DNA of 39,605 nucleotides from the NCBI GenBank assembly GCA_934202525.1, contig CAKPYB010000029.1, positions 1 to 39,605 on the forward strand. The letters run 5' to 3'. Made by a program: the position numbers and the translations under genes. The DNA comes from an uncultured Prevotella sp. (GTDB taxonomy: Bacteria > Bacteroidota > Bacteroidia > Bacteroidales > Bacteroidaceae). A model generated the notes under the pieces. The model saw only the letters and a list, made by a program, of their open reading frames with translations. It did not search any database and was not told the DNA's origin. This document shows, one piece after another, positions 9,786 to 20,604 of this stretch. How positions within the stretch are numbered: position 1 is the first letter of the stretch; every line of letters begins with the position of its first letter.

Positions 9786-10670
9786 TTATTTGGTAAATTC
9801 ATCAGGTAAAACCGGCATGGCTCCATTCTGTGTACAGACGAATGCCGAAACCTTTACTGCCAATTCATGAGCTTCCTTTACGCTCTTACCCTTCAGAATG
9901 CTTGCCACGAAAGCGCCTGTGAAGGAATCGCCAGCGCCCACGGTATCAGCCACTTCCACCTTCGGTGTCTCGATAAACGAGACCTCGCCAGGGGTGAACA
10001 CGTAGCTGCCGTTTACGCCGCAGGTAAGGATGAGCATCTTCAGATTATACTTGCCCAAGAGGAGCCAGCATTTATTCTCCAGATCGATGCCCGGATAACC
10101 GAAGATGCGGCTTACGGTAATCAGTTCTTCATCGTTGATCTTGAGGATGTTGCATCGCTTGATGCTCTCGGTGATAATCTCCTTGGTATAGAATCCCTGA
10201 CGGAGATTGATGTCGAAAATCTTGAGGATTCCTTCTCCCTCAGGCATGTGGTCGAGGAAGTGATAGATGGTGTTGCGGGAAACCTCGTTGCGCTGAGCCA
10301 GCGATCCGAAGCAGGCTGCGGTGCAATTCTTAGCCAATTCTTCCAGGGCAGGGGTGTAAGGGATGTTGTCCCAGGCAGCTCCTTCCTTGATGTCGTAGCA
10401 AGGAATGCCGTTGGCGTCGAGCGAAACCTGGACGGTGCCTGTAGGGTAGGCTACCTTATCTATCTGATAGTTGAGATGGTGATCGTTGAGTTCTTTCTCC
10501 AGCTCCTTGCCCAGCTCATCATCACCCATTGCACTAACTGCACAGCTGTCGAGTCCGAACTGTGAAACATGGTAAGCAAAGTTGGCAGGAGCGCCACCGA
10601 GCTTCTTTCCTTCTGGAAGCACATCGAAGAGTGCCTCGCCGATACCTATAACTGATTGTTTCTTTTCCAT
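9786..10670 (-). CDS. Fructokinase (PfkB family)
   Basis: 294 aa from the ATG at 10670 (an ATG two codons upstream at 10676 is equally possible); a longer frame crosses the promoter and is rejected. The PfkB/ribokinase fold shows the substrate-side GGAPANFAYH (25-34) and the C-terminal signature DTVGAGDSFTGAF with catalytic D248. The sequence best fits bacterial fructokinase, giving fructose-6-phosphate. It is the sink for fructose made by the two polyol dehydrogenases of this island, and its promoter carries the same triple LacI operator array as the GPH symporter and mannitol dehydrogenase. Confidence 0.88.
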   Translation of the reverse strand: MEKKQSVIGIGEALFDVLPEGKKLGGAPANFAYHVSQFGLDSCAVSAMGDDELGKELEKELNDHHLNYQIDKVAYPTGTVQVSLDANGIPCYDIKEGAAWDNIPYTPALEELAKNCTAACFGSLAQRNEVSRNTIYHFLDHMPEGEGILKIFDINLRQGFYTKEIITESIKRCNILKINDEELITVSRIFGYPGIDLENKCWLLLGKYNLKMLILTCGVNGSYVFTPGEVSFIETPKVEVADTVGAGDSFTGAFVASILKGKSVKEAHELAVKVSAFVCTQNGAMPVLPDEFTK

Positions 10671-10718
10671 TGTCATTTTTACTTTAAGAATGTTAGAGAT
10701 GTTACTTGATTTCTGTTG

Positions 10719-10749
10719 CAAAGGTAGCATTTTTCTGCTACCTTCGCAA
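10719..10749 (-). promoter_or_regulatory. Fructokinase promoter, overlapped by an inverted repeat
   Basis: TTG (10749-10747) and TACCTTTG (10726-10719) are 20 bp apart. A perfect inverted repeat (AAGGTAGCA 10721-10729, TGCTACCTT 10736-10744) covers the -7 box and the spacer. It could be an extra operator or simply a DNA hairpin. Confidence 0.7.
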
Positions 10750-10771
10750 AGAAAAATCATCTAAACTTTCT

Positions 10772-10814
10772 GCAAACGTTCCCGCAATCGTTTCCAATTT
10801 CTGCAATCGTTTGC
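10772..10814 (-). promoter_or_regulatory. Triple LacI-type operator array A
   Basis: Three 12-bp sites, at 10772-10783, 10784-10795 and 10803-10814, have the pattern GCAAnCGTTnnC with a central CG. They start 12 and 19 bp apart. Exactly 45 bp separate the array from the fructokinase -7 box. Confidence 0.75.
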
Positions 10815-10838
10815 AGTCTGTATCTTCTCTTCTATCCT

Positions 10839-11888
10839 TTACTTCTTTTCTTCTGGTTTCTGCTCGAAATCGATGAGGACCTTCATGCTGGTTTCGCGAT
10901 GAGCATCGATGAACTTGTAGGCGTCATCGTATTCCTCGAAGGCGAAGCGGTTGCTTACCAGTGGCTTGAGGTTGACGATGCCCTGGCTTACATAATCGAT
11001 GGCTGTGAGATAATCCTCATGGCGATACATCATCGAACCGATGAGTCGCAACTCGTGCTCTCCCAGATAGAACATGCTAAGGGCAGGATCCTTGGCAAAG
11101 ACTGCCACAACCACGATGTCGCTACCTTTCTCGATGGTCTCCATCAGCGAGCGGATGGAAACTTCTACACCAGCTACCTCGAAACCTACCTGGTAGCCTT
11201 CCTCGCCGAAGAGATCATTTGCAGCCTCCTTCAAGGTCTTCTTGGTAATGTTGAGGGTGTGCTTGATGCCGCACTCACGAGCCTTTGCCAGACGGAGATC
11301 GCTTACATCGGTAATGAGTACGTTCTTGGCGCCACGTGCAATGCAGAACTGAGCAATGAGGTTGCCGATGGTTCCAGCACCGCTGACTACCACATTCTTG
11401 CCTTTTACATCGGTGCGGTTGCTGGCATGGGCACCAACGGCTGCAGGCTCAATCATTGCACCGTAGTCGAGGCTCATGCCTTCTGGCAACTTAGCCACGC
11501 GGTCGTCATCTACTACGAAGAAGTCCTGTGCTGCTCCGTCAGCCTGGAATGCCTGAACACGCAGGTGCTCACAGACATTATACTGTCCTCTCTTGCAAGG
11601 GTTACACTTGCCGCAAACCAACTGTGGGCGAGCGGTGATGTGGTCGCCAGGCTTGCAGACGGTAACTTCGCTGCCTACTGCCATAACCACTCCTGAGTAC
11701 TCATGTCCCTGTACCACTGGGTAGAAGGTGGCTGGGTGAAGACCGTGGTAAGAGTGAATCTCGCTACCGCAGATGCCGATGCGCTTGATGTTGACGAGAA
11801 CCTGATGAGCAGTTAAGTCTGCTGCCTTTGGTTCTGCTACTTCCTTGAACTCGATATGCTTTGGTTCTACCAATATTGCCTGTCTCAT
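10839..11888 (-). CDS. Zinc-dependent polyol dehydrogenase (sorbitol dehydrogenase-like)
   Basis: 349 aa medium-chain dehydrogenase. Catalytic zinc ligands C40 and H62-E63 (GHEYSG) are present, as is the four-cysteine structural zinc loop (C92, C95, C98, C106) and the Rossmann GAGTIGNLIAQ motif. The subgroup includes sorbitol, L-idonate and related polyol dehydrogenases. In this context it probably oxidises a hexitol to a ketohexose with NAD+, for example sorbitol to fructose. It follows the GPH symporter by 61 bases on the same strand and is co-transcribed with it; the fructokinase downstream has its own promoter. Confidence 0.85.
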   Translation of the reverse strand: MRQAILVEPKHIEFKEVAEPKAADLTAHQVLVNIKRIGICGSEIHSYHGLHPATFYPVVQGHEYSGVVMAVGSEVTVCKPGDHITARPQLVCGKCNPCKRGQYNVCEHLRVQAFQADGAAQDFFVVDDDRVAKLPEGMSLDYGAMIEPAAVGAHASNRTDVKGKNVVVSGAGTIGNLIAQFCIARGAKNVLITDVSDLRLAKARECGIKHTLNITKKTLKEAANDLFGEEGYQVGFEVAGVEVSIRSLMETIEKGSDIVVVAVFAKDPALSMFYLGEHELRLIGSMMYRHEDYLTAIDYVSQGIVNLKPLVSNRFAFEEYDDAYKFIDAHRETSMKVLIDFEQKPEEKK

Positions 11889-11949
11889 AATTATTATGTT
11901 TTTAAAATGTTATTGTTATGTTGGTGGGATAAAAGATCCCGTTTTATCT

Positions 11950-13344
11950 TTATTTCTTTTTGTTTTCCAAATCAGCCATAATCTGCTTGTATTGCTTCTT
12001 GTTGAGCTTATAGAAGCAGAGACATCCTGCGGTGAGAATCCACAATACTCCAGGAATGGTGCTGAAGGCGTGGTGCATGATGCTCAATACTTCCGGATTC
12101 TGCATGGCGTTGCTTACGTATCCTGCACTGCCCAAGGCAATGGCGAGGAGCGATGTGCCGAGTGCCATTCCAATTTTGTTGCCCAGCGAAATGAAGGCGT
12201 ATTGGAAACCGTCGTTTCTGATGCCCGTCTTCCACTCGCCATACTCCACACAGTCGGGGATGATGGCATAGATGGCTGTGTTGAAGCCTGAGAAGAAGAA
12301 CCACGACAAAGCCGAGAACAGATAGAACATGATGGCGCTGCCGTTAGGGCTGAAGAAGTACAGACCTATCATCGTAATACCGGTGAGGAAGGCGAAGATG
12401 GCTGCCGTAAAACCCTTGTTGCCCGTTTTTTTGAATACCAGCGGGAAGCAGGCTGCACCTATGATGCTTGGCACGATGATGGCCATGGAATAGTAAGAGA
12501 AGAGCGTTGCTGAACCTTCCACATAAGTGAAATAGTAGAGCATGTCGGCGTTGCGACCGTAGTGGATGAAGCCGAAGAGCAACTGTCCCAGAAGGGCGAG
12601 CAGATAAGGCTTGTTCTTCATCACGGAACGAAGCTGTACCTTCAAAGGAAGCTTCTGTCCCACAGGAACTTCTACTACCTCTTTGGTCTTGTGGAAGCAG
12701 AAAAGATGGCAGGCGGCGAAGATAACGCCGTAGAGTACTGCCACTGCCAGATATCCATATTTTGTATCGCCTGCGCCGAACCAACTGATGAGCGGCACGG
12801 TTACGATGTTGATCACTCCGATGGCCATCATGGCGCTTACCGAACGGCTGGTGTTGAGCTTGGCTCTCTCGTCAATGTCTTGTGTCATGGCTCCGCAGAG
12901 TGTACCGTAAGGCAGGTTGACGCAAGTATATCCCAGCACGAGGATGCAGTAGGTTACTGCCATATAGATAATCTTGGCGGTCTGGCTCCATTCCGGATGT
13001 GCCCAGAAAGTGAGAATCAGTATCAGAGCCGTGATAGGAGCTCCGAAGAGCAGCCAAGGGCGGAATCGTCCCCATCGGGTATGGGTCTTATCTGTCAGTG
13101 CACCGATGATAGGGTCGTTGATGGCGTCCCAGAATCGGGAAACAAGCATCAGTGTAGCTACGGCACTCATACTGATTCCGAACACATCGGTATAGAATAT
13201 CATGAGAAAGTTGCCCACGAACATCCAACTGAAGTTGCAGCCTACATCGCCCATGCCATAGGCGAGCTTGCTGATGAAGGGAACCTTTCCCTGTGAATTG
13301 TTCTCTAGCGAAGTTTTCGCTTGAATTTTAGAATCCTGTTCCAT
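11950..13344 (-). CDS. GPH-family (MelB-like) sugar/polyol:cation symporter
   Basis: 464 aa, about 12 membrane segments. The glycoside-pentoside-hexuronide family signature is visible: KLAYGMGDVG (26-35) in the first helix, DAINDPIIGALTDKTHTRWGRFRPW between helices 2 and 3, and PDCVEYGEWKTG in the C-terminal half. Inner-membrane uptake of a sugar or, by context, a hexitol. First gene of a two-gene operon with the polyol dehydrogenase, driven by a promoter with the triple operator array and divergent from lacI 1. Confidence 0.88.
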   Translation of the reverse strand: MEQDSKIQAKTSLENNSQGKVPFISKLAYGMGDVGCNFSWMFVGNFLMIFYTDVFGISMSAVATLMLVSRFWDAINDPIIGALTDKTHTRWGRFRPWLLFGAPITALILILTFWAHPEWSQTAKIIYMAVTYCILVLGYTCVNLPYGTLCGAMTQDIDERAKLNTSRSVSAMMAIGVINIVTVPLISWFGAGDTKYGYLAVAVLYGVIFAACHLFCFHKTKEVVEVPVGQKLPLKVQLRSVMKNKPYLLALLGQLLFGFIHYGRNADMLYYFTYVEGSATLFSYYSMAIIVPSIIGAACFPLVFKKTGNKGFTAAIFAFLTGITMIGLYFFSPNGSAIMFYLFSALSWFFFSGFNTAIYAIIPDCVEYGEWKTGIRNDGFQYAFISLGNKIGMALGTSLLAIALGSAGYVSNAMQNPEVLSIMHHAFSTIPGVLWILTAGCLCFYKLNKKQYKQIMADLENKKK

Positions 13345-13445
13345 ATTCTTTTTCTTAGGTTTGATTGTGATACTTAATGTTGTTTATTCTTTGTTTTGTG
13401 AAGGAATAGAGCGATTTGAGAAATCGTTTTTTCCTTTTCACGCTG

Positions 13446-13476
13446 CAAAGATAGAACGATTTTGCTGGAAAAGCAA
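13446..13476 (-). promoter_or_regulatory. Promoter of symporter-dehydrogenase operon
   Basis: TTG (13476-13474) and TATCTTTG (13453-13446) are 20 bp apart on the minus strand; the leader to the ATG is about 100 bases. Confidence 0.7.
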
Positions 13477-13498
13477 GAAAAAAATCGACTGTTTTTTC

Positions 13499-13541
13499 GC
13501 AACCGTTCCCGCAACCGTTCCCATTTTTCGCAACCGTTCCC
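13499..13541. promoter_or_regulatory. Triple LacI-type operator array B (shared by divergent promoters)
   Basis: Three copies of GCAACCGTTCCC at 13499-13510, 13511-13522 and 13530-13541, with starts 12 and 19 bp apart. The array lies exactly 45 bp from the -7 box of the symporter operon on one side and exactly 45 bp from the -7 box of lacI 1 on the other. Confidence 0.8.
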
Positions 13542-13563
13542 AAAAAGATTTCTCTGTTTTTTG

Positions 13564-13594
13564 TTGTTGCTTTCGTGGAAAATAAGTATCTTTG
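13564..13594 (+). promoter_or_regulatory. Promoter of lacI 1
   Basis: TTG (13564-13566) and TATCTTTG (13587-13594) are 20 bp apart; the ATG is 32 bases downstream. Confidence 0.7.
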
Positions 13595-13625
13595 CAATCA
13601 CATTTAACAAGAAAGAAAAAGAGAT

Positions 13626-14633
13626 ATGGCAAAATATGTAACCATCATGGATATTGCAAGGGAACTGGGGATTTCCAAGTCCACCGTTTCGCGTGCTCTT
13701 TCGGGAGATACGGGTAATGTGAAGGCAGAAACCTTGCAGAAGATATTGGAAACTGCCGAGCGGATGGGCTATCACCGCAACGAACTGGCAGTGAACTTTC
13801 GCCAGCAGAGTACTCACAACATCGGCATCATCATTCCCGAAATCGTCACCACTTTCTATATGACTTTCATCAATGAAGCACAAACCATCTTGCGCAAGCA
13901 GGGGTATAAGGTGATGATTGCCATCTCGAACGAGAATCCTGAGCAGGAGAGGGAGAACATTCTGATGATGGAGCAGCTGCGTGTGGACGGTATTCTGATG
14001 AGTGCCTGCGATAAGGAGCATAATGTGGACCTATATAATAAGGTGATAGGAAGGGGCATTCCCATCGTGTTTTTCGATAGAACGGTGGAGAAGGTAAAGG
14101 CTTCACAGGTGCACATGGATGATTACATCATGTCGTTTTTCATGGTTGAGGCTTTGTTGCGCAAGGGGTATAAGCATATTGTTCATATCCCGGGACCTGC
14201 TTATATCCGAAACAGCTATGAACGATTGAGGGGCTATCGGGATGCACTGGAAAAGTTTCATATAGAGTATCAGGCGCAAGATGTCTTGTCGCCAGCTTTG
14301 TCGGCTGAAGAGGGAAGTTGGGTAATGGAGCGGTTCTTGGAGAAGAATGTGCCATTTGATGCGGTATTTGGTTTTACGGAGACTGCTGTGTTGGGGGCCA
14401 AAAGTGCTATACAGAAGCGTGGCTTGCGTATTCCGGAGGATGTGGCACTATGCTGCATGTCGGGCACTGCTCTGGCTACTCTGGTTCATCCTCAGTTGAC
14501 GGCAGTGGAGCAACCTGTTGAGAAAATGGCGATGGAGAGTTGCCGACTGCTGTTGGAACATCTTGCAGATGGTAATAAGAAGGTTGAGGAAATCGCATTG
14601 AGAGGCGAAACCGTGATAAGGGAATCTACATAA
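13626..14633 (+). CDS. LacI-family transcriptional regulator 1
   Basis: 335 aa. The N-terminal helix-turn-helix is canonical (IMDIARELGISKSTVSRAL), followed by the hinge and a periplasmic-binding-protein-like effector domain. The hinge helix reads NELAVNF, so the usual leucine that wedges into the operator CpG is phenylalanine here. It is divergent from the symporter-dehydrogenase operon, and both share operator array B, which suggests it controls the hexitol genes and itself. A bidirectional terminator follows. A 13-bp piece of the gene end including the stop codon is duplicated at 14651-14663. Confidence 0.9.
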   Translation: MAKYVTIMDIARELGISKSTVSRALSGDTGNVKAETLQKILETAERMGYHRNELAVNFRQQSTHNIGIIIPEIVTTFYMTFINEAQTILRKQGYKVMIAISNENPEQERENILMMEQLRVDGILMSACDKEHNVDLYNKVIGRGIPIVFFDRTVEKVKASQVHMDDYIMSFFMVEALLRKGYKHIVHIPGPAYIRNSYERLRGYRDALEKFHIEYQAQDVLSPALSAEEGSWVMERFLEKNVPFDAVFGFTETAVLGAKSAIQKRGLRIPEDVALCCMSGTALATLVHPQLTAVEQPVEKMAMESCRLLLEHLADGNKKVEEIALRGETVIREST

Positions 14634-14663
14634 AGGAAATGGTTCCAAAAGAATCTACATAAA

Positions 14664-14702
14664 AAGCGGGTGTGTCATTGTATTTGGATGACACACCCGC
14701 TT
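14664..14702. terminator. Strong bidirectional terminator
   Basis: Arms 14664-14678 and 14688-14702 are perfectly complementary (15 bp) around a 9-base loop. It separates lacI 1 from the convergent NDH-2 gene. Confidence 0.85.
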
Positions 14703-14751
14703 CTATTATCTTTTATTTCTTTTTTTACTCTCTTCTCTAAGGATTAAGAGT

Positions 14752-16113
14752 TTAATCTTCTTCATTCTCCAGCAAGTCGGTGCCGAGGTGAGTGGTCTGC
14801 TCACGCTTCAAGCGGTCGCGCACCTCCTTTGGCTTGGTGGCGTAGGTAATCATTCGGATGGAATCGTTGTAGCTTACGTACTTCCAAAGCCAGTTGAGCA
14901 ATACCATCATCTTGTTCTTTACACCGAGGATGGAGCGGAGGTGAACCACCAGCCACAATACCCAGGCAAAGAAGCCCTGACTGTGGAACTTGCCAAGCTC
15001 TACCACTGCCTTGTTTCTACCCACGGTAGCCATTGAACCCAGGTTCTTGTAGCGGAAAGGCTTGAGCTGGGAATCAGTGGCTCCCTCGGCAATCTTCTGG
15101 ATATTCTTAGCCAGGAGTGCTGCCTGCTGAATGGCTACCTGCGCCAACTGTGGATGACCGCCAGGATAAGCTGGGTCTGTGGTCTGGATACACTGGTCGC
15201 CGATAGCGAAGAGACCGTCCATGCCAGGGATGCGGTTGAATTCATCTACTACGATTCGGAAACCACGGCCCAGATGGTCGCCATCGATACCTGTGATAGG
15301 CTGTGCCTTTACACCGGATACCCAGAGGAAGGTGCGGGTAGGAATCTCCTGACCATCCTTCATCAGAACCTTGTGGTCCTTGTAGTCGGTTACCATTTTG
15401 CCAAACTGTACATCCACACCCATACTGGTAAGGAATTCGTATGCTTTCTTAGAAGAGTCCTGTGACATTCCGGCGAGCAGTCTGTCGCCCGCTTCCAGGA
15501 GATAGATGTGCATCAGAGATGAGTCCATATCAGGATAATCATAAGGAATCACGTAGCGCTTCATTTCAGAGAGGGCTCCGGCAATCTCTACACCTGTGGC
15601 ACCACCGCCCACAATGACCACGTTCAGGAGTTCCTGTCGCTCCTCTTCTGTGGCACAGGTCAATGCACGCTCCAGGTTACTTAGCACAGCGTTGCGCAAT
15701 CCCATTGCTTCAGAAACGGTCTTCATCGGAATAGCCCACTTCTCGATGTTGGCATTGCCATAGAAATTGGTAGTGGTTCCTGCTGCGAACACCAAGTAAT
15801 CGTATTCAATCTTACCGATGGAAGTCTGCAGAATCTTCTTGTCTGGGAATACGGCTCTCGCTTCTGCCATGCGGAAGTAGAAGTTCTTGCGCTTACGGAA
15901 AATCTGGCGGAATGGGAAGGAGATGGAACTTGGATCAATACCTGCCGAGGCTATCTGATAGATAAGCGGAGGAAACTGATGGAAGTTGTTCTTGTCGATT
16001 AACACTACCTGAAGGTTTGCCTTGCTGAGGTCTTCTGCCAAGCGAAGACCACCGAGTCCGCCACCTACAATCACGACTCTCTTCAACTGATTTCTCTTGA
16101 TATTAATGCTCAT
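14752..16113 (-). CDS. ndh: Type II NADH:quinone oxidoreductase (NDH-2)
   Basis: 453 aa. Two dinucleotide-binding motifs are present: VVIVGGGLGGL near residue 13 for FAD and VVIVGGGATGVEIAGAL in the middle for NADH, plus the FAD-binding LFAIGDQ motif. The C-terminal part has amphipathic and hydrophobic segments (FFAWVLWLVVHL) that attach NDH-2 to the inner membrane. It oxidises NADH and reduces quinone without pumping protons. It lies between the two lacI genes; a lone LacI-type operator (16250-16261) lies upstream. Co-regulation with NADH-producing polyol dehydrogenases is inferred only. Confidence 0.9.
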   Translation of the reverse strand: MSINIKRNQLKRVVIVGGGLGGLRLAEDLSKANLQVVLIDKNNFHQFPPLIYQIASAGIDPSSISFPFRQIFRKRKNFYFRMAEARAVFPDKKILQTSIGKIEYDYLVFAAGTTTNFYGNANIEKWAIPMKTVSEAMGLRNAVLSNLERALTCATEEERQELLNVVIVGGGATGVEIAGALSEMKRYVIPYDYPDMDSSLMHIYLLEAGDRLLAGMSQDSSKKAYEFLTSMGVDVQFGKMVTDYKDHKVLMKDGQEIPTRTFLWVSGVKAQPITGIDGDHLGRGFRIVVDEFNRIPGMDGLFAIGDQCIQTTDPAYPGGHPQLAQVAIQQAALLAKNIQKIAEGATDSQLKPFRYKNLGSMATVGRNKAVVELGKFHSQGFFAWVLWLVVHLRSILGVKNKMMVLLNWLWKYVSYNDSIRMITYATKPKEVRDRLKREQTTHLGTDLLENEED

Positions 16114-16182
16114 AACTACTGCTATTTAAAAAACACATATATTTGAAGGCTTTTATGCCTGGTTCTCGCTGAAATTCGACTG

Positions 16183-16212
16183 CAAAGGTACAACTTTTTG
16201 ATGAAGTGGCAA
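16183..16212 (-). promoter_or_regulatory. Promoter of ndh
   Basis: TTG (16212-16210) and TACCTTTG (16190-16183) are 19 bp apart on the minus strand. Confidence 0.65.
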
Positions 16213-16249
16213 AGGAAGACGAGAAGAAATGTCGGGATAATAGGCTGAT

Positions 16250-16261
16250 GCAATCGTTTCC
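16250..16261. promoter_or_regulatory. Single LacI-type operator between ndh and lacI 2
   Basis: GCAATCGTTTCC is identical to the middle site of array A. There is no second or third site at the 12/19-bp spacing. It lies 59 bp beyond the ndh -7 box, so it is weaker evidence than the arrays. The rest of the 312-bp gap (16114-16425) holds only the two divergent promoters. Confidence 0.45.
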
Positions 16262-16345
16262 ATTTTGGGTTCGGGAAAACGAAGTGGTAAAATGTAATAT
16301 TTAGATAGCATTTTTAAGAGTATCCTTATCTTTTTTCGAGAAAAG

Positions 16346-16377
16346 TTGTCGATTTTAAAGGAAAAGTTGTATTTTTG
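16346..16377 (+). promoter_or_regulatory. Promoter of lacI 2
   Basis: TTG (16346-16348) and TATTTTTG (16370-16377) are 21 bp apart; the ATG is 48 bases downstream. Confidence 0.65.
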
Positions 16378-16425
16378 CATCGACAACTTCAATATTCGAA
16401 CATTTATCTGATAAAAACATAATAA

Positions 16426-17430
16426 ATGAAACATGTAACTATCAAGGATATAGCCCGTTCACTCTGCATCTCGGTCTCCACTGTTTCCAGAGCGTTGACG
16501 GATGACAAGAACATTCGCAAGGAGACGCGCGAGATGGTGGTGGAAGAGGCAAAGCGACTCGGATACAAGCGCAATCCGGTGGCGATGAACCTGAAGATGG
16601 GGCGCACGAACACCATTGGTGTCATCGTGCCGGAGATGCACACCCCTTATGCTTCGCAGGTGATTAACGGCATTCAGGACGTGCTCTACAAGAAGAACCA
16701 GAAGGTGATGATTGCCGAGAGCGATGAGAATCCGGAGCGTGAATTGGAGAACCTGAAGATGATGGAGCAGTTTATGGTAGATGGACTGATTGTGAGCCTC
16801 TGCAGCTACCGCAAGAACATAGAAATGTATCAGCAGTTGGCAGCAGATGGTATGGCAATCGTCTTCTACGACCGCATTCCATACGGATTGAAAATGCCGC
16901 AGGTGCTGGTGGATGATAATGTAGATTCATATTTCATGGTGGAGCATCTGATCCGTCTGGGCAGGAAGCGCATCGCTTATCTGCAGGGGCCCGACGACAT
17001 TTACAATGCCTATCAGCGAGGATTGGGTTATCGCCAGGCGATGGAGAAATTCCATCTCTTCGACCCTGAACTGATTGTAAAGACGGGAATGACCTTCAAG
17101 GATGGAGCTGATGCCATCGACCGCCTTATATATAATAAGGTAGAATTTGATGCAGTCTTCGCCTTTACCGACACTTTGGCGATAGGTGCGCAGAATCGAC
17201 TTCGTGCTTTGGGCAGACGGGTGCCGGAAGAGATTTTTGTGGCTGGATTTTCGGGCACCGAACTATCTACCATCGTTTCTCCGCAGATTACTACCATGGA
17301 ACCTCCGCTGGAAGAGATGGGCAGAAAGGCGGCTGAACTGGTGATGGAGAAGATTAACAATCCGGAGATGGAAGACAGGCAAGTGGTGCTGAAGACTACG
17401 ATGCGATGCAGGGAATCTACGGGAGAATGA
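16426..17430 (+). CDS. LacI-family transcriptional regulator 2
   Basis: 334 aa with HTH TIKDIARSLCISVSTVSRAL, hinge NPVAMNLKMG (with the usual hinge leucine, unlike lacI 1) and a sugar-binding effector domain. It is a clear paralogue of lacI 1, with many shared blocks such as ENLKMMEQ and the C-terminal TTMEPPLEEM region. It lies directly upstream of the mannitol dehydrogenase gene, whose promoter carries operator array C, so it probably takes part in the same regulon. Its own promoter has no triple array. The gene end is duplicated just after the stop codon (17413-17429 and 17435-17451). Confidence 0.9.
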   Translation: MKHVTIKDIARSLCISVSTVSRALTDDKNIRKETREMVVEEAKRLGYKRNPVAMNLKMGRTNTIGVIVPEMHTPYASQVINGIQDVLYKKNQKVMIAESDENPERELENLKMMEQFMVDGLIVSLCSYRKNIEMYQQLAADGMAIVFYDRIPYGLKMPQVLVDDNVDSYFMVEHLIRLGRKRIAYLQGPDDIYNAYQRGLGYRQAMEKFHLFDPELIVKTGMTFKDGADAIDRLIYNKVEFDAVFAFTDTLAIGAQNRLRALGRRVPEEIFVAGFSGTELSTIVSPQITTMEPPLEEMGRKAAELVMEKINNPEMEDRQVVLKTTMRCRESTGE

Positions 17431-17492
17431 TAATGAATCTACGGCAGAATGTTGTTATCTCCATATCAGCTGAAAATCGCCTGAAAAAAATT

Positions 17493-17535
17493 TAAAACGT
17501 TTGCAGAAATTGGAAACGTTTGCGGGAACGTTTGC
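17493..17535 (+). promoter_or_regulatory. Triple LacI-type operator array C
   Basis: Sites at 17493-17504, 17512-17523 and 17524-17535 share nnnAACGTTTGC (starts 19 and 12 bp apart). This is the same layout as arrays A and B when read relative to the controlled gene, and exactly 45 bp separate it from the -7 box at 17581. Confidence 0.8.
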
Positions 17536-17580
17536 AAGTTTTTTTCGAAAAAAATATCTTTTTATCTCGAAAAAACGCAA

Positions 17581-17588
17581 TATCTTTG
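17581..17588 (+). promoter_or_regulatory. Promoter -7 box of mannitol dehydrogenase gene
   Basis: TATCTTTG. The -33 region is only T-rich (no TTG), consistent with a promoter that needs an activator. Confidence 0.65.
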
Positions 17589-17691: not shown

Positions 17692-19188
17692 ATGGCAAAT
17701 TTAGTGAATGCAAACGCAGCAAATGCAGCTCAGGTAGTGAATGGTTATGCTTATAACCGCAGTTTGGTAAAGGCAGGTATCCTGCACTTCGGAGTAGGTA
17801 ACTTCCACCGTGCTCACTTGGAGTTTATGACCAATAAGCTTCTCGAGAACAATACCCAGCAGAACTGGGGTATCTGTGGAGCAATGATTCTCCCAGGCGA
17901 TGAGCGTCTCTACCACGCCCTGAAGAAGCAGGACGGTGAATACACCCTTACCGTATGTGGACGCGATGACAGCATCCAGGTTTATCAATTGGGTGCACTC
18001 GTTGAACTCTATTGGGGTATTGAGGAGCAAGAGCAGATTCTGAACAAGATTGCGTCTAAGGATATTAAGATTATCACCCTCACCATCACCGAGGGCGGAT
18101 ACAACATCTCTCGTCAGAGCGGCGAATTCATGCTCGACAATGCACAGGTGGCTCACGATATTCAGAACCCAGCCAAGCCGGTTACAGCCTTCGGATATGT
18201 TGCTGAGGGATTGCGCCGCCGCAAGGCAGCAGGCAATGGTCCTATCACTATCCTCTCCTGCGATAATCTGCAGCATAATGGCAATACAGCCCGCAAGGCG
18301 TTTATGACTTTCATCGAGGCTCAGGACAAGGAACTCGCTGCCTGGATGGAAGAGAACGTTACCTTCCCTAACTCAATGGTTGACCGCATTACTCCTGCCA
18401 CCCGTCCTGCCGACATCGAGCGACTGAATGCTCAGAACGGCACTTGCGATGAGGCTCCTGTATATTGCGAGGATTTCATCCAGTGGGTAGTAGAGGATAA
18501 CTTTGCAGCCGGTCGTCCAGCATGGGAAACCGTGGGTGCTCAGATGACTGATGATGTTACAGCCTTCGAGAATATGAAGCTTTCTCTTCTGAATGCTTCT
18601 CATACATTACTCTCTTATCCATCTTTCCTCGGTGGTTACCGCAAGGTAGATGCAGCCATGCACGATGAGAGAATCCGTAAGTTTGTTCGTGCCTTCATGG
18701 ACGAAGACATCACTCCTTACGTGCCAGCTCCAAAGGATACAGATCTTGAGGAATACAAGCAGTGCCTGGTAGAGCGTTTCGGCAACCGTATGGTCAGCGA
18801 CCAGGTGGCTCGTCTCTGCTTCGATGGTGCCAGCAAGTTCCCTGTTTACGTGATGCCGAACCTGGAGAAGATGATAGCAGATGATGCTTCAGGCAAGTGT
18901 CAGGATGTAGAGTTCAAGCGTGTGGCTTATCTCTTTGCTGCTTACCGTCATTATCTGAAGTATCAGGTAGATGACAACGGTGATGCTTTCGAGGTAGCTG
19001 ATCCATGGCTCACCGTAGATGACCGTAAGGCTATCGAAAGCGATAATGCACTCGAATTCCTCGGCATTTCAGCCTTCACAAGCACCAATCTCAAGGCAGC
19101 TGCTCATTTCGTAGAGCTCTATCTGAAGATGGTGGAAGACATCAAGGCAAAGGGTGCCATGAAGGTTTTGGAAGAAGAAATCCTGTAA
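17692..19188 (+). CDS. Mannitol 2-dehydrogenase family enzyme
   Basis: 498 aa, the usual length for polyol-specific long-chain dehydrogenases. It has the N-terminal nucleotide-binding region (LHFGVGNFHRAHLEF), the DNLQHNG motif and the catalytic signature K296-xxxx-N301-xx-H304 (KLSLLNASH). Family members include mannitol 2-dehydrogenase, fructuronate reductase and altronate oxidoreductase. The fructokinase, polyol dehydrogenase and shared operator arrays favour mannitol (to fructose) over uronate substrates, since no uronate isomerase or KDG kinase is nearby. NAD-linked, cytoplasmic. The FHS importer gene follows in the same direction. Confidence 0.85.
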   Translation: MANLVNANAANAAQVVNGYAYNRSLVKAGILHFGVGNFHRAHLEFMTNKLLENNTQQNWGICGAMILPGDERLYHALKKQDGEYTLTVCGRDDSIQVYQLGALVELYWGIEEQEQILNKIASKDIKIITLTITEGGYNISRQSGEFMLDNAQVAHDIQNPAKPVTAFGYVAEGLRRRKAAGNGPITILSCDNLQHNGNTARKAFMTFIEAQDKELAAWMEENVTFPNSMVDRITPATRPADIERLNAQNGTCDEAPVYCEDFIQWVVEDNFAAGRPAWETVGAQMTDDVTAFENMKLSLLNASHTLLSYPSFLGGYRKVDAAMHDERIRKFVRAFMDEDITPYVPAPKDTDLEEYKQCLVERFGNRMVSDQVARLCFDGASKFPVYVMPNLEKMIADDASGKCQDVEFKRVAYLFAAYRHYLKYQVDDNGDAFEVADPWLTVDDRKAIESDNALEFLGISAFTSTNLKAAAHFVELYLKMVEDIKAKGAMKVLEEEIL

Positions 19189-19296: not shown

Positions 19297-20604
19297 ATGA
19301 AACAATCGATAACACTCAGGAGTGCGGGACCTTTTCTCCTCCTGACATTCATATATTTTATAGTGGGCTTCCTCACCACCGTCAATGGTCAGTGTCAGGG
19401 TCCTTTGAAGATAGCCTTCCTCTCGGAGGTTACCACTACCAAGAACTCCCTGGCTACGCTCATCTCCTTCGCCTTCTTCCTGGGTTATCTGCTCAATAGT
19501 GCGAAGACGGGACGCTTGCTCAATAAGGTGGGCTATAAGAAGACACTTATCCGTTCGATGCTGGTAATGGTGCTGGGACTTGCCTTCTATCTTGCTTCGG
19601 CGCTGATTGCTGAATATTGGGGTGGGGCAGGTGTGCATCTCTCTCAGGATTTCGTACCATTCGGATATTTCGTTTTCCTTTTCGGTTCTTATCTGATGGG
19701 TACGGCTGCGGCAATGCTTCAGGTGGTTATCAATCCTTACATTGCTGCCTATCCTTTGCCGGGAACCCAACCTGTGCAGCGTATGAACTTTACCTGTGCC
19801 GTGAATTCATTCGGTACTACCATTGCTCCTTTCTTCGTAACGGGCGTGATGTTTGAAGGTGTGTCTCTGGATAGTGTTTCTGCCGATCAGCTCACCATTC
19901 CTTTCCTGGTGATGATGCTCATCATCGCCTTTACCACATGGAGTACTTCCAGAGCGAATCTTCCTGATATTGAGGGTACAAGAGAGAATTCTCAGGAGGC
20001 GGAATCTGAAGGCAAGACCACCACTGCAGTTGATGGCATGAATGCAAAGAAGCGCAGCATCTGGTCATTCCGTCATCTGAAATACGGAGTGATTACCATC
20101 TTCTTCTATGTAGGAACCGAGGTGGGAATCGGCAACAATATGAATCTCCATGCGATGGATCTGATGGGGCATGGTTACGATCTTTCGCCAGCCCTTCTTG
20201 CCACACTCTATTGGGGAGGATTCATGATAGGTAGAATGGTTTCTGCCGGTTTGAAGAATGTGGCGCCTCGCCCTATGCTCCTCACCGTTACGGTGGCTGC
20301 CATTGCATTGATGTCTGTTTCCATGTTTACCGAGAATCTCTGGTTGATGGCGGCTGTGGGATTGTTCCATAGTGTGATGTGGAGTTGCATCTTCACCTTG
20401 GCAGTTGATGGCTTGAAGGAGTATACTTCCAAGGCCTCAGGCGTGTTTATGATGGGTGTTTTCGGCGGTGCAGTCTTCCCTGTGCTTCAGGGTTTGCTTG
20501 CCGATTATATCGGTTCATGGCAGTTCACCTGGCTCGTTCCTCTCATCTGCGAGTTCGTCATCCTCTGGTACGGACTTGTGGGTTATAAGAAGCAGGAAGC
20601 ATAA
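19297..20604 (+). CDS. FHS-family sugar MFS transporter (FucP/GluP-like)
   Basis: 435 aa, about 12 membrane helices with a hydrophilic central loop (about residues 225-250, Glu/Thr-rich). The family-typical features of FucP-like H+ symporters are visible: an N-terminal helix ending FLTTVNGQCQGPLK, then GYLLNSAKTGRLLNKVGYKK, and QVVINPYIAAYPLPG. It imports a monosaccharide or, by context, the hexitol or fructose used by the adjacent dehydrogenase. Probably co-transcribed with it, since no -7 box is seen in the 108-bp gap. Confidence 0.87.
   Translation: MKQSITLRSAGPFLLLTFIYFIVGFLTTVNGQCQGPLKIAFLSEVTTTKNSLATLISFAFFLGYLLNSAKTGRLLNKVGYKKTLIRSMLVMVLGLAFYLASALIAEYWGGAGVHLSQDFVPFGYFVFLFGSYLMGTAAAMLQVVINPYIAAYPLPGTQPVQRMNFTCAVNSFGTTIAPFFVTGVMFEGVSLDSVSADQLTIPFLVMMLIIAFTTWSTSRANLPDIEGTRENSQEAESEGKTTTAVDGMNAKKRSIWSFRHLKYGVITIFFYVGTEVGIGNNMNLHAMDLMGHGYDLSPALLATLYWGGFMIGRMVSAGLKNVAPRPMLLTVTVAAIALMSVSMFTENLWLMAAVGLFHSVMWSCIFTLAVDGLKEYTSKASGVFMMGVFGGAVFPVLQGLLADYIGSWQFTWLVPLICEFVILWYGLVGYKKQEA

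Follow-up and report, generated by a model that had tools for sequence, protein, structure and literature searches.

Triple LacI-type operator arrays at a fixed distance from the -7 box in a putative polyol gene cluster of Prevotella and in other Bacteroidota

Introduction

LacI-family proteins are the textbook repressors, and most characterised members of the family do repress. In a 39,605-nucleotide stretch of DNA from an uncultured Prevotella sp. (GenBank assembly GCA_934202525.1, contig CAKPYB010000029.1, positions 1 to 39,605; hereafter the window), three promoters of a putative polyol gene cluster each carry an array of three LacI-type operators, and a clade of the family apparently sits at one fixed distance from the core promoter. 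What kind of control goes with so rigid a layout? The architecture is real and widely conserved, and it probably reflects multi-site control by LacI-family regulators that likely contact RNA polymerase and act as activators. Bacteroidota promoters, with their -33 and -7 elements, differ from those of E. coli, and in the arrays described here the operator sequence is free to change while the geometry is not.

Three arrays with one geometry

Arrays A, B and C each consist of three 12-bp LacI-type sites with a central CG, with starts at 0, 19 and 31 when read towards the controlled gene. Between the last site of each array and a -7 box of the form TAnnTTTG, which reads TACCTTTG or TATCTTTG, there are exactly 45 bases. 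The elements are located as follows.

10772..10814, minus strand: array A, three sites, fructokinase promoter
10803-10814, minus strand: array A site 1, GCAAACGATTGC
10784-10795, minus strand: array A site 2, GGAAACGATTGC
10772-10783, minus strand: array A site 3, GGGAACGTTTGC
10719..10726, minus strand: -7 box TACCTTTG of the fructokinase promoter, 45 bases from array A
13499..13541, minus strand: array B, symporter promoter; sites 1, 2 and 3 at 13530-13541, 13511-13522 and 13499-13510, all GGGAACGGTTGC
13446..13453, minus strand: -7 box TATCTTTG of the symporter promoter, 45 bases from array B
13587..13594, plus strand: -7 box TATCTTTG of the lacI-1 promoter, likewise 45 bases from array B
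17493..17535, plus strand: array C, three sites, mannitol dehydrogenase promoter
17493-17504, plus strand: array C site 1, TAAAACGTTTGC
17512-17523, plus strand: array C site 2, GGAAACGTTTGC
17524-17535, plus strand: array C site 3, GGGAACGTTTGC
17581..17588, plus strand: -7 box TATCTTTG of the mannitol dehydrogenase promoter, 45 bases from array C

A first-pass annotation, made by a model from the sequence alone, had described these arrays; its coordinates, orientations and 19/12 spacing proved exact on re-check, as did its 45-base gap at all three promoters. The array triples score 45.1 on the plus strand and 47.0 and 37.5 on the minus strand; among 200 first-order Markov sequences of window length, scored on one strand, none exceeded 19.6. 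The scoring matrix was built from representative array-type sites and favours the window, and the margin is large all the same; chance co-occurrence of independent sites was rejected on these scores.

Within the 43-bp span, arrays A and C are identical at 39 of 43 bases and share the linker AGAAATT between sites 1 and 2, while A and B agree at 34 of 43 and B and C at 33 of 43. The 45-bp gaps of the three promoters are unrelated (15-20 of 45 bases alike in pairwise comparison), as are the 40 bp upstream of the arrays (12-15 of 40). The first-pass annotation held that neither the bases between the sites nor those around them are conserved; this stands for the flanks and the 45-bp gaps and fails for the linker shared by A and C.

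Array B, as that annotation had missed, serves a divergent promoter, with the symporter and lacI-1 -7 boxes each exactly 45 bp away. The second 45, on the lacI-1 side, recurs in another Segatella copri (L089); as a conserved feature this symmetry was rejected, being absent from L082, L083, L168 and L171.

Conservation at mannitol dehydrogenase loci

By the first-pass annotation's own criterion, the claim would fall if orthologous promoters kept neither the spacing nor the distance. The comparison set comprised the best 80 of 91 loci from a single mannitol dehydrogenase (mtlD) scan; arrays were found with a matrix built from the nine sites of the window, run over 76 of the 80 loci, and then by direct reading. 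Three-site arrays lie upstream of mtlD at 26 loci (24 Bacteroidales-like, two from other Bacteroidota), a count that includes L017 despite its degenerate third site. They occur in Segatella, Prevotella, Leyella, Bacteroides, Parabacteroides, Muribaculaceae, Odoribacter, Proteiniphilum and Cryptobacteroides, and further in unnamed Bacteroidales, Porphyromonadaceae and single members of Solitalea and Flavobacterium. An exact TAnnTTTG is found at 45 bp in 19 of the 26 loci, at 44 in two, at 46 in two and at 47 in one (24/26 at 44-47); of the remaining two, L071 has TACTTTTA at 45 and L040 is without a -7 box. The claim survived this comparison. The gaps of the 19 loci at exactly 45 sort into 14 groups, no more than 60% alike in sequence, and so it is the distance that has been kept and not the sequence.

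The spacing between sites was not imposed in the search for site pairs 8-45 bp apart upstream of mtlD across the 80 loci. The spacings recovered were 19 (32 loci), 20 (15), 31 (25) and 32 (one), together with the overlapping pairs at 12 bp (25/80 loci) and 13 bp (1/80), and no other values occurred. Relatives among other Flavobacteria, Sphingobacteria and Cytophaga carry two sites (GGGAACGTTCCC or variants) at a spacing of 19-20 bp, and 16 of 21 such loci have TAnnTTT at 46 or 47; a 22nd locus of this kind, L054, has no pair and was left out of this count.

Among 22 divergent loci, the -7 box facing lacI stands 29 bp from the array in 11, at 25-82 in eight, and is absent from three. A fixed lacI-side distance in the mtlR-mtlD divergon was therefore rejected, and since this distance varies, the fixed one belongs to the target side. 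The 29-bp lacI-side box occurs in L004, L005, L008, L011, L012, L014, L015, L018, L058, L075 and L076. It suggests that the same array also controls its own regulator gene; site 1 at 29 bp would encroach on the core promoter of lacI, an arrangement that would fit autorepression.

The regulators and their gene cluster

The genes served by the arrays, and the two LacI-family regulators encoded among them, are listed here.

9786..10670, minus strand: fructokinase-like PfkB kinase (PF00294)
10839..11888, minus strand: zinc-dependent polyol-type dehydrogenase (ADH_N/ADH_zinc_N), second gene from promoter B
11950..13344, minus strand: GPH-family sugar:cation symporter, first gene from promoter B (TIGR00792, 388.5 bits against a cut-off of 231.35)
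13626..14633, plus strand: LacI-1, LacI-family regulator (PF00356 above cut-off), predicted to bind array B
14752..16113, minus strand: NADH dehydrogenase-like gene (ndh)
16250..16261, minus strand: lone operator-like site GGAAACGATTGC in the gap between ndh and lacI-2
16426..17430, plus strand: LacI-2, MtlR-like LacI-family regulator (PF00356 above cut-off), predicted to bind arrays A and C
17692..19188, plus strand: mannitol dehydrogenase family protein (PF01232/PF08125)
19297..20604, plus strand: major facilitator superfamily (MFS) sugar transporter, 3' of the mannitol dehydrogenase gene (PF07690)

The natural reading of this cluster is a polyol pathway (polyol to keto-sugar to phosphosugar) with putative substrates. 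The mannitol dehydrogenase is 97% identical to its counterpart in S. copri strain Indica (L001), which places the window in S. copri or close to it. An MFS transporter adjoins mtlD in most of the compared loci. LacI-1 and LacI-2 match the LacI helix-turn-helix PF00356 at 44.1 and 43.3 bits (cut-off 27) and the periplasmic-binding-protein-like effector domain PF13377 at 87.3 and 109.9 bits (cut-off 26.5), respectively.

The array follows the regulator from locus to locus. A LacI-2 orthologue counted as adjacent if it lay within 2.5 kb and reached at least 45% identity. Among the 77 of 80 loci that have at least 1 kb of upstream sequence (L006, L013 and L042 dropped), 47 have such a neighbour and 46 of these carry a two- or three-site array, against 0 of the 30 others (Fisher p 1.5e-20). 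The CG-centred palindromic operator is in this way tied to its regulator by both site form and LacI-2 adjacency. Alistipes and other Bacteroidales lack array and LacI-2 together, a pattern difficult to account for if LacI-2 did not read the array.

In a maximum-likelihood tree of 69 LacI proteins, the MtlR-type, the LacI-1-type and a third group, named GGAAAC-type after its operators, stand on one side of a branch (96/53); the other side holds 13 LacI proteins without a detected array, detection there being strict. LacI-1 forms its own clade of five rows (100/99), and the GGAAAC group does likewise (100/99). L054 is placed with the two-site MtlRs, though its array was not found, and the long frames L034 and L046 were left out of the tree. 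LacI-1 and LacI-2 differ in the recognition helix, where each of the five LacI-1 rows carries K in place of the V of LacI-2 (KSTVSR, VSTVSR), and in the hinge, where each carries R in place of the K of LacI-2. The hinge residues read NLK in LacI-2, NFR in the LacI-1 of the window, SLR in L082 and L083, and NLR in L171. In LacI-family proteins a leucine of the hinge helix enters the central CG of the operator. By general contact rules of the family, these helix and hinge differences could underlie the difference between GGGAACGGTTGC and AACGTTTGC operators.

A strict palindrome screen of 30 LacI loci (out of 44 LacI matches) found clusters in 5 of the 30, on the 12/19/31 lattice or with 6-bp shifts, plus an isolated 43-bp pair in L198. 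The screen missed known arrays (L196, L203, L208), and 5/30 is therefore a lower bound.

The same layout with other operators and other targets

Arrays of the LacI-1 type, with AACGGTT cores, stand before a GPH gene in L082, L083 and L168 and as a variant in L171, where the -7 box of the GPH promoter lies at 46, 46, 46 and 45, respectively. Together with another S. copri, this gives an exact TAnnTTTG at 45 or 46 in 5/5 LacI-1-type loci outside the window. LacI-1 itself was not found within the 3 kb examined at L168.

An order-level scan of 393 genomes, allowing at most one mismatch, matched 7 genomes at 15 places, with zero control matches. Two of these genomes carry mtl-type arrays (G001, G012), and five carry GGAAAC-type (GGAAACGTTTCC) arrays at ten places; one of the ten, on the reverse strand of G899, is a reverse reading of the L123 array (only TAnnTTT at 21) and was dropped, leaving nine. 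The -7 distance was not used in finding the GGAAAC-type arrays, and yet a -7-like box lies at 45 (six) or 46 (three) in 9/9, one of them exact and eight with one mismatch; all other distances from 15 to 81 together yielded three such boxes. L125 and L126 look orthologous, so that the nine arrays are not fully independent.

The GGAAAC-type arrays (L123-L127, L130-L132, L136) lie before symporter, TonB-receptor and glycosidase genes. The seven of nine targets that were scanned comprise two SSF symporters, two TonB receptors, a GH127, a GH43 and one protein without a Pfam match; two of the arrays have a GH29 gene immediately upstream. They apparently represent a family of LacI-controlled polysaccharide regulons, of which a description was not found in the literature searched.

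Operator sites were also present upstream of 9 of 19 fructokinase genes scanned in other loci, and ten were without. The L004 fructokinase gene, in the genome shared with L128, has a full array with TTTCTTTG at 45. In six loci (L010, L011, L012, L015, L016, L075) the middle or third site has decayed, and TAnnTTTG stands at 44, 45, 46, 46, 44 and 46, respectively; the fructokinase arrays of L017 and L021 are less clear. An extra array facing ndh in Prevotella sp. 885 and Leyella stercorea has one-mismatch -7 boxes at 46 and 45. L002 and L003 keep a full array in this position, and the lone site at 16250-16261 of the window would be the remnant of one. Such ndh-facing sites perhaps tie NADH oxidation to the regulon.

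The proposal that geometry is kept, and not the product of a recent duplication, is borne out by these comparisons: other families show the 19/12/45 layout again, three LacI subgroups that differ in operator sequence share it, and the 45-bp gaps of the 14 mtlD groups have diverged. LacI regulons may accordingly be found by layout instead of sequence.

Promoter anatomy

Information per column was calculated over 25 aligned mtlD promoters, with L017 left out. The three sites hold 1.66, 1.70 and 1.54 bits per column and the linker between sites 1 and 2 (consensus AGATTTT) holds 1.45, nearly as much as the sites themselves, which contradicts the earlier view that inter-site bases vary. The -7 box holds 1.08 bits, the 45-bp gap 0.32, the -33 zone 0.22 and the 10 bp upstream of the array 0.51. 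A second conserved motif, of the kind that flanking CRP sites provide in CytR systems, is therefore missing from both the gap and the 10 bp upstream. A TTG at -33 is present in 3/25 array promoters, in 49/221 other TAnnTTTG boxes (taken upstream of open frames, with array promoters not purged) and at 1120/15200 random positions (7.4%). The -33 element is not conserved in the array promoters.

At the junction of sites 2 and 3, 7 of the 25 loci read TGC|GG and 18 have a CC or TC ending followed by GC, with no mixed case (p 2e-6). GTTTGC|GGGAAC and GTTCCC|GCAAAC are reverse complements, so that the junction joins one half-site of each kind in either orientation. This rule does not extend to the GGAAAC-type arrays.

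The fructokinase promoter also contains an inverted repeat at 10716-10749, with 14-base arms (13/14 paired) and a 6-base loop, which spans the -33 to -7 region. L090, an S. copri relative, shows a similar repeat. The element could form a hairpin or serve as a second operator.

Activation or repression by the bound regulator

We consider it fairly probable that LacI-2 at arrays A and C and LacI-1 at array B bind these sites and contact RNA polymerase at a fixed distance, most likely as class I-like activators. The arrays would be composite operators read by one clade of LacI-family proteins in Bacteroidota. LacI-2 would bind A and C and drive the fructokinase gene and the mannitol dehydrogenase gene with its transporter, while its paralogue LacI-1 would bind B and drive the GPH symporter, the polyol dehydrogenase and lacI-1 itself. 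The effector may be the polyol or its keto-sugar.

If the -7 box occupies -12 to -5, as it does in a flavobacterium (PMC9723704), the centres of the sites would lie near -63.5, -75.5 and -94.5. An upstream site at fixed helical phase is found in 24/26 mtlD, 9/9 GGAAAC-type and 5/5 LacI-1-type loci, and a distance that stays constant across so much divergence speaks for direct RNA polymerase contact. The bound LacI protein would be held at one distance and one helical phase from the polymerase and would most likely recruit it at promoters that keep a -7 box without a conserved -33 element.

Sites 1 and 3, separated by 31 bp or about three turns, would lie on nearly the same face of the helix. 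Sites 2 and 3, at 12 bp, seem to leave too little room for two ordinary dimers and are probably occupied either one at a time or together in some special way; judging from LacI-DNA structures in general, two canonical dimers at this spacing would compete for one stretch of DNA. Alternative occupancy, perhaps set by ligand, is our preferred guess. A bolder version, which we consider less likely than not, is that the clade consists of dedicated activators forming an obligatory multi-dimer complex on the 43 bp. The 12-bp pair would then be either a new binding mode or a ligand toggle (site 2 versus site 3) that decides polymerase engagement, and the operators of different sugar regulons would have changed while the machine was kept.

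The sign of regulation is argued from position. CcpA generally activates from sites upstream of -35 (PMC3463425), and by this rule, with an exception at lev, the upstream position of the arrays and the lack of a conserved -33 element favour activation. The activator-like role proposed by the first-pass annotation is supported as far as the position of the arrays upstream of the core promoter goes.

Several observations weigh against activation by contact, or against the evidence from which it is argued. Position alone cannot fix the sign, since GalR represses gal P1 from -60.5 and the lev cre is upstream and yet repressive. The contrast at -33 between array promoters and ordinary promoters is modest to weak, and window promoters A and B have TTTG or TTG 20 bp before the -7 box. 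L054 is a LacI-2 locus without an array, 8 of the 30 loci without LacI-2 are labelled as outside Bacteroidota, and the branch that unites the array-bearing LacI proteins has weak SH-aLRT support (96/53) in a midpoint-rooted tree. Many of the loci are related, and the p-values given above overstate independence. The arrays are also rare. A class-level scan of 395 evenly drawn genomes, allowing at most two mismatches, matched nine, of which G001 and G012 were judged real and seven two-mismatch genomes were judged chance, compared with 10 control matches. A free-spacing search for three AACGTT cores matched 56/395 genomes, and among the matches listed the 19/12 spacing occurred only in G001, with no visible excess. 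In a genus-level scan of 120 genomes at the same tolerance of two mismatches, eight matched; G001, G1106 and partly G1032 are array-like, and five are chance or repeats.

The main rival to activation is contact repression, in which array-bound LacI-2 or LacI-1 would hold RNA polymerase inactive until an inducer releases the regulator. We regard it as rather unlikely. It would need a fixed distance and phase as much as activation does, and it agrees with the general habit of the family. GalR bound at -60.5 in the E. coli gal operon inhibits P1 by contacting RNA polymerase, and activates from the same position (PMC4693257). The mtlD promoters, however, lack the conserved -33 element (0.22 versus 1.08 bits for the -7 box) although promoters A and B have one, and wherever a -7 box was found the target-side sites are clear of the core promoter. 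Site position was likewise used by Ravcheev et al. (2014) to predict a positive or negative mode (PMC4052901).

Steric or looping repression, or CytR-style anti-activation with a second DNA-bound factor, would dispense with any fixed touch on the polymerase, and we think it improbable. Several sites per promoter are common among LacI-family members (PMC4052901), and CytR acts together with flanking CRP (PMC3454398). Looping and occlusion, however, have no need of one exact -7 distance in distant relatives, and CytR promoters keep their CRP sites (PMC3454398) whereas the 45-bp gap of the arrays holds no conserved second motif.

Recent duplication of one promoter cassette is very improbable as the source of the shared geometry in the window and is contradicted as a full account, for the near-identity of arrays A and C and their common linker are set against unrelated flanks and gaps, 9-10 of 43 differing bases in array B, and remote loci and other operator sequences with the same layout; old copying of A and C may nevertheless have occurred.

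Relation to described systems

Activation by LacI-2 and LacI-1 from upstream would have partial precedents. CcpA of Bacillus subtilis, at cre boxes upstream of -35 (ackA, pta, ilvB), is likewise a LacI/GalR-family protein acting from an upstream site with helix-face dependence. It differs in being global and HPr-Ser-P-dependent, with cre boxes at ordinary -35 promoters, and a three-site array at one fixed distance is absent from the text consulted (PMC3463425). GalR at O_E (-60.5) also stands near -60 and touches RNA polymerase, inhibiting P1 and activating P2, but it uses one 16-bp upstream operator plus one inside galE, and its sign is set by two overlapping promoters (PMC4693257).

LacI-family intersite distances in general peak at 13, 22 and 32 bp, with three adjacent sites at 116 operons and overlaps of about 13 bp at 110 (PMC4052901). 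The pairs at about 12-13 and 31-32 bp, the CG-centred palindromes and the GntR overlaps of E. coli resemble the arrays, and the same puzzle was raised there for 13-bp site pairs; a fixed 19/12 triple with a constant 45-bp distance to the -7 box is absent from the text consulted, in which Bacteroides is one taxonomic group with about 1-2% of the regulons (PMC4052901). CytR-CRP of the gammaproteobacteria is likewise a LacI member in a spaced nucleoprotein complex, but it works by anti-activation with flanking CRP, and CytR half-sites drift over larger distances (PMC3454398). SusR and the hybrid two-component systems (HTCS) of Bacteroides share tandem sites at fixed spacing in Bacteroidota sugar regulons and belong to other protein families. 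The LacI regulons of the same study (KdgR, UxaR, UxmR, UxuR) deal with uronates, and neither mannitol nor fructokinase is mentioned in its main text (PMC3878776). Two papers that mention both LacI and Bacteroidetes deal, in the text consulted, with other regulators (PMC3870299; PMC10766802).

The earlier claim that no LacI-type regulator with such an architecture had been described was consequently overstated, since multi-site promoters, overlaps of about 13 bp and triples (PMC4052901), polymerase contact from -60.5 by GalR (PMC4693257) and CcpA activation from upstream of -35 (PMC3463425) are all published. Neither the fixed 19/12/45 arrangement nor a LacI-family activator in Bacteroidota was found in the literature searched, outside which lay subscription papers and supplements. 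The layout amounts to a promoter grammar for Bacteroidota that can be tested directly, and it is a natural system in which to study the as yet unexplained overlapping pairs of LacI sites noted by Ravcheev et al. (2014; PMC4052901). The arrays could also yield compact inducible promoters for Bacteroides engineering.

Other features of the window

No Rfam family at its gathering score and no tRNA was found in the window. A 299-amino-acid frame at 1014-1913 has a run of RAEG repeats near its C-terminus and presumably resembles Rpn-type nuclease/transposase proteins.

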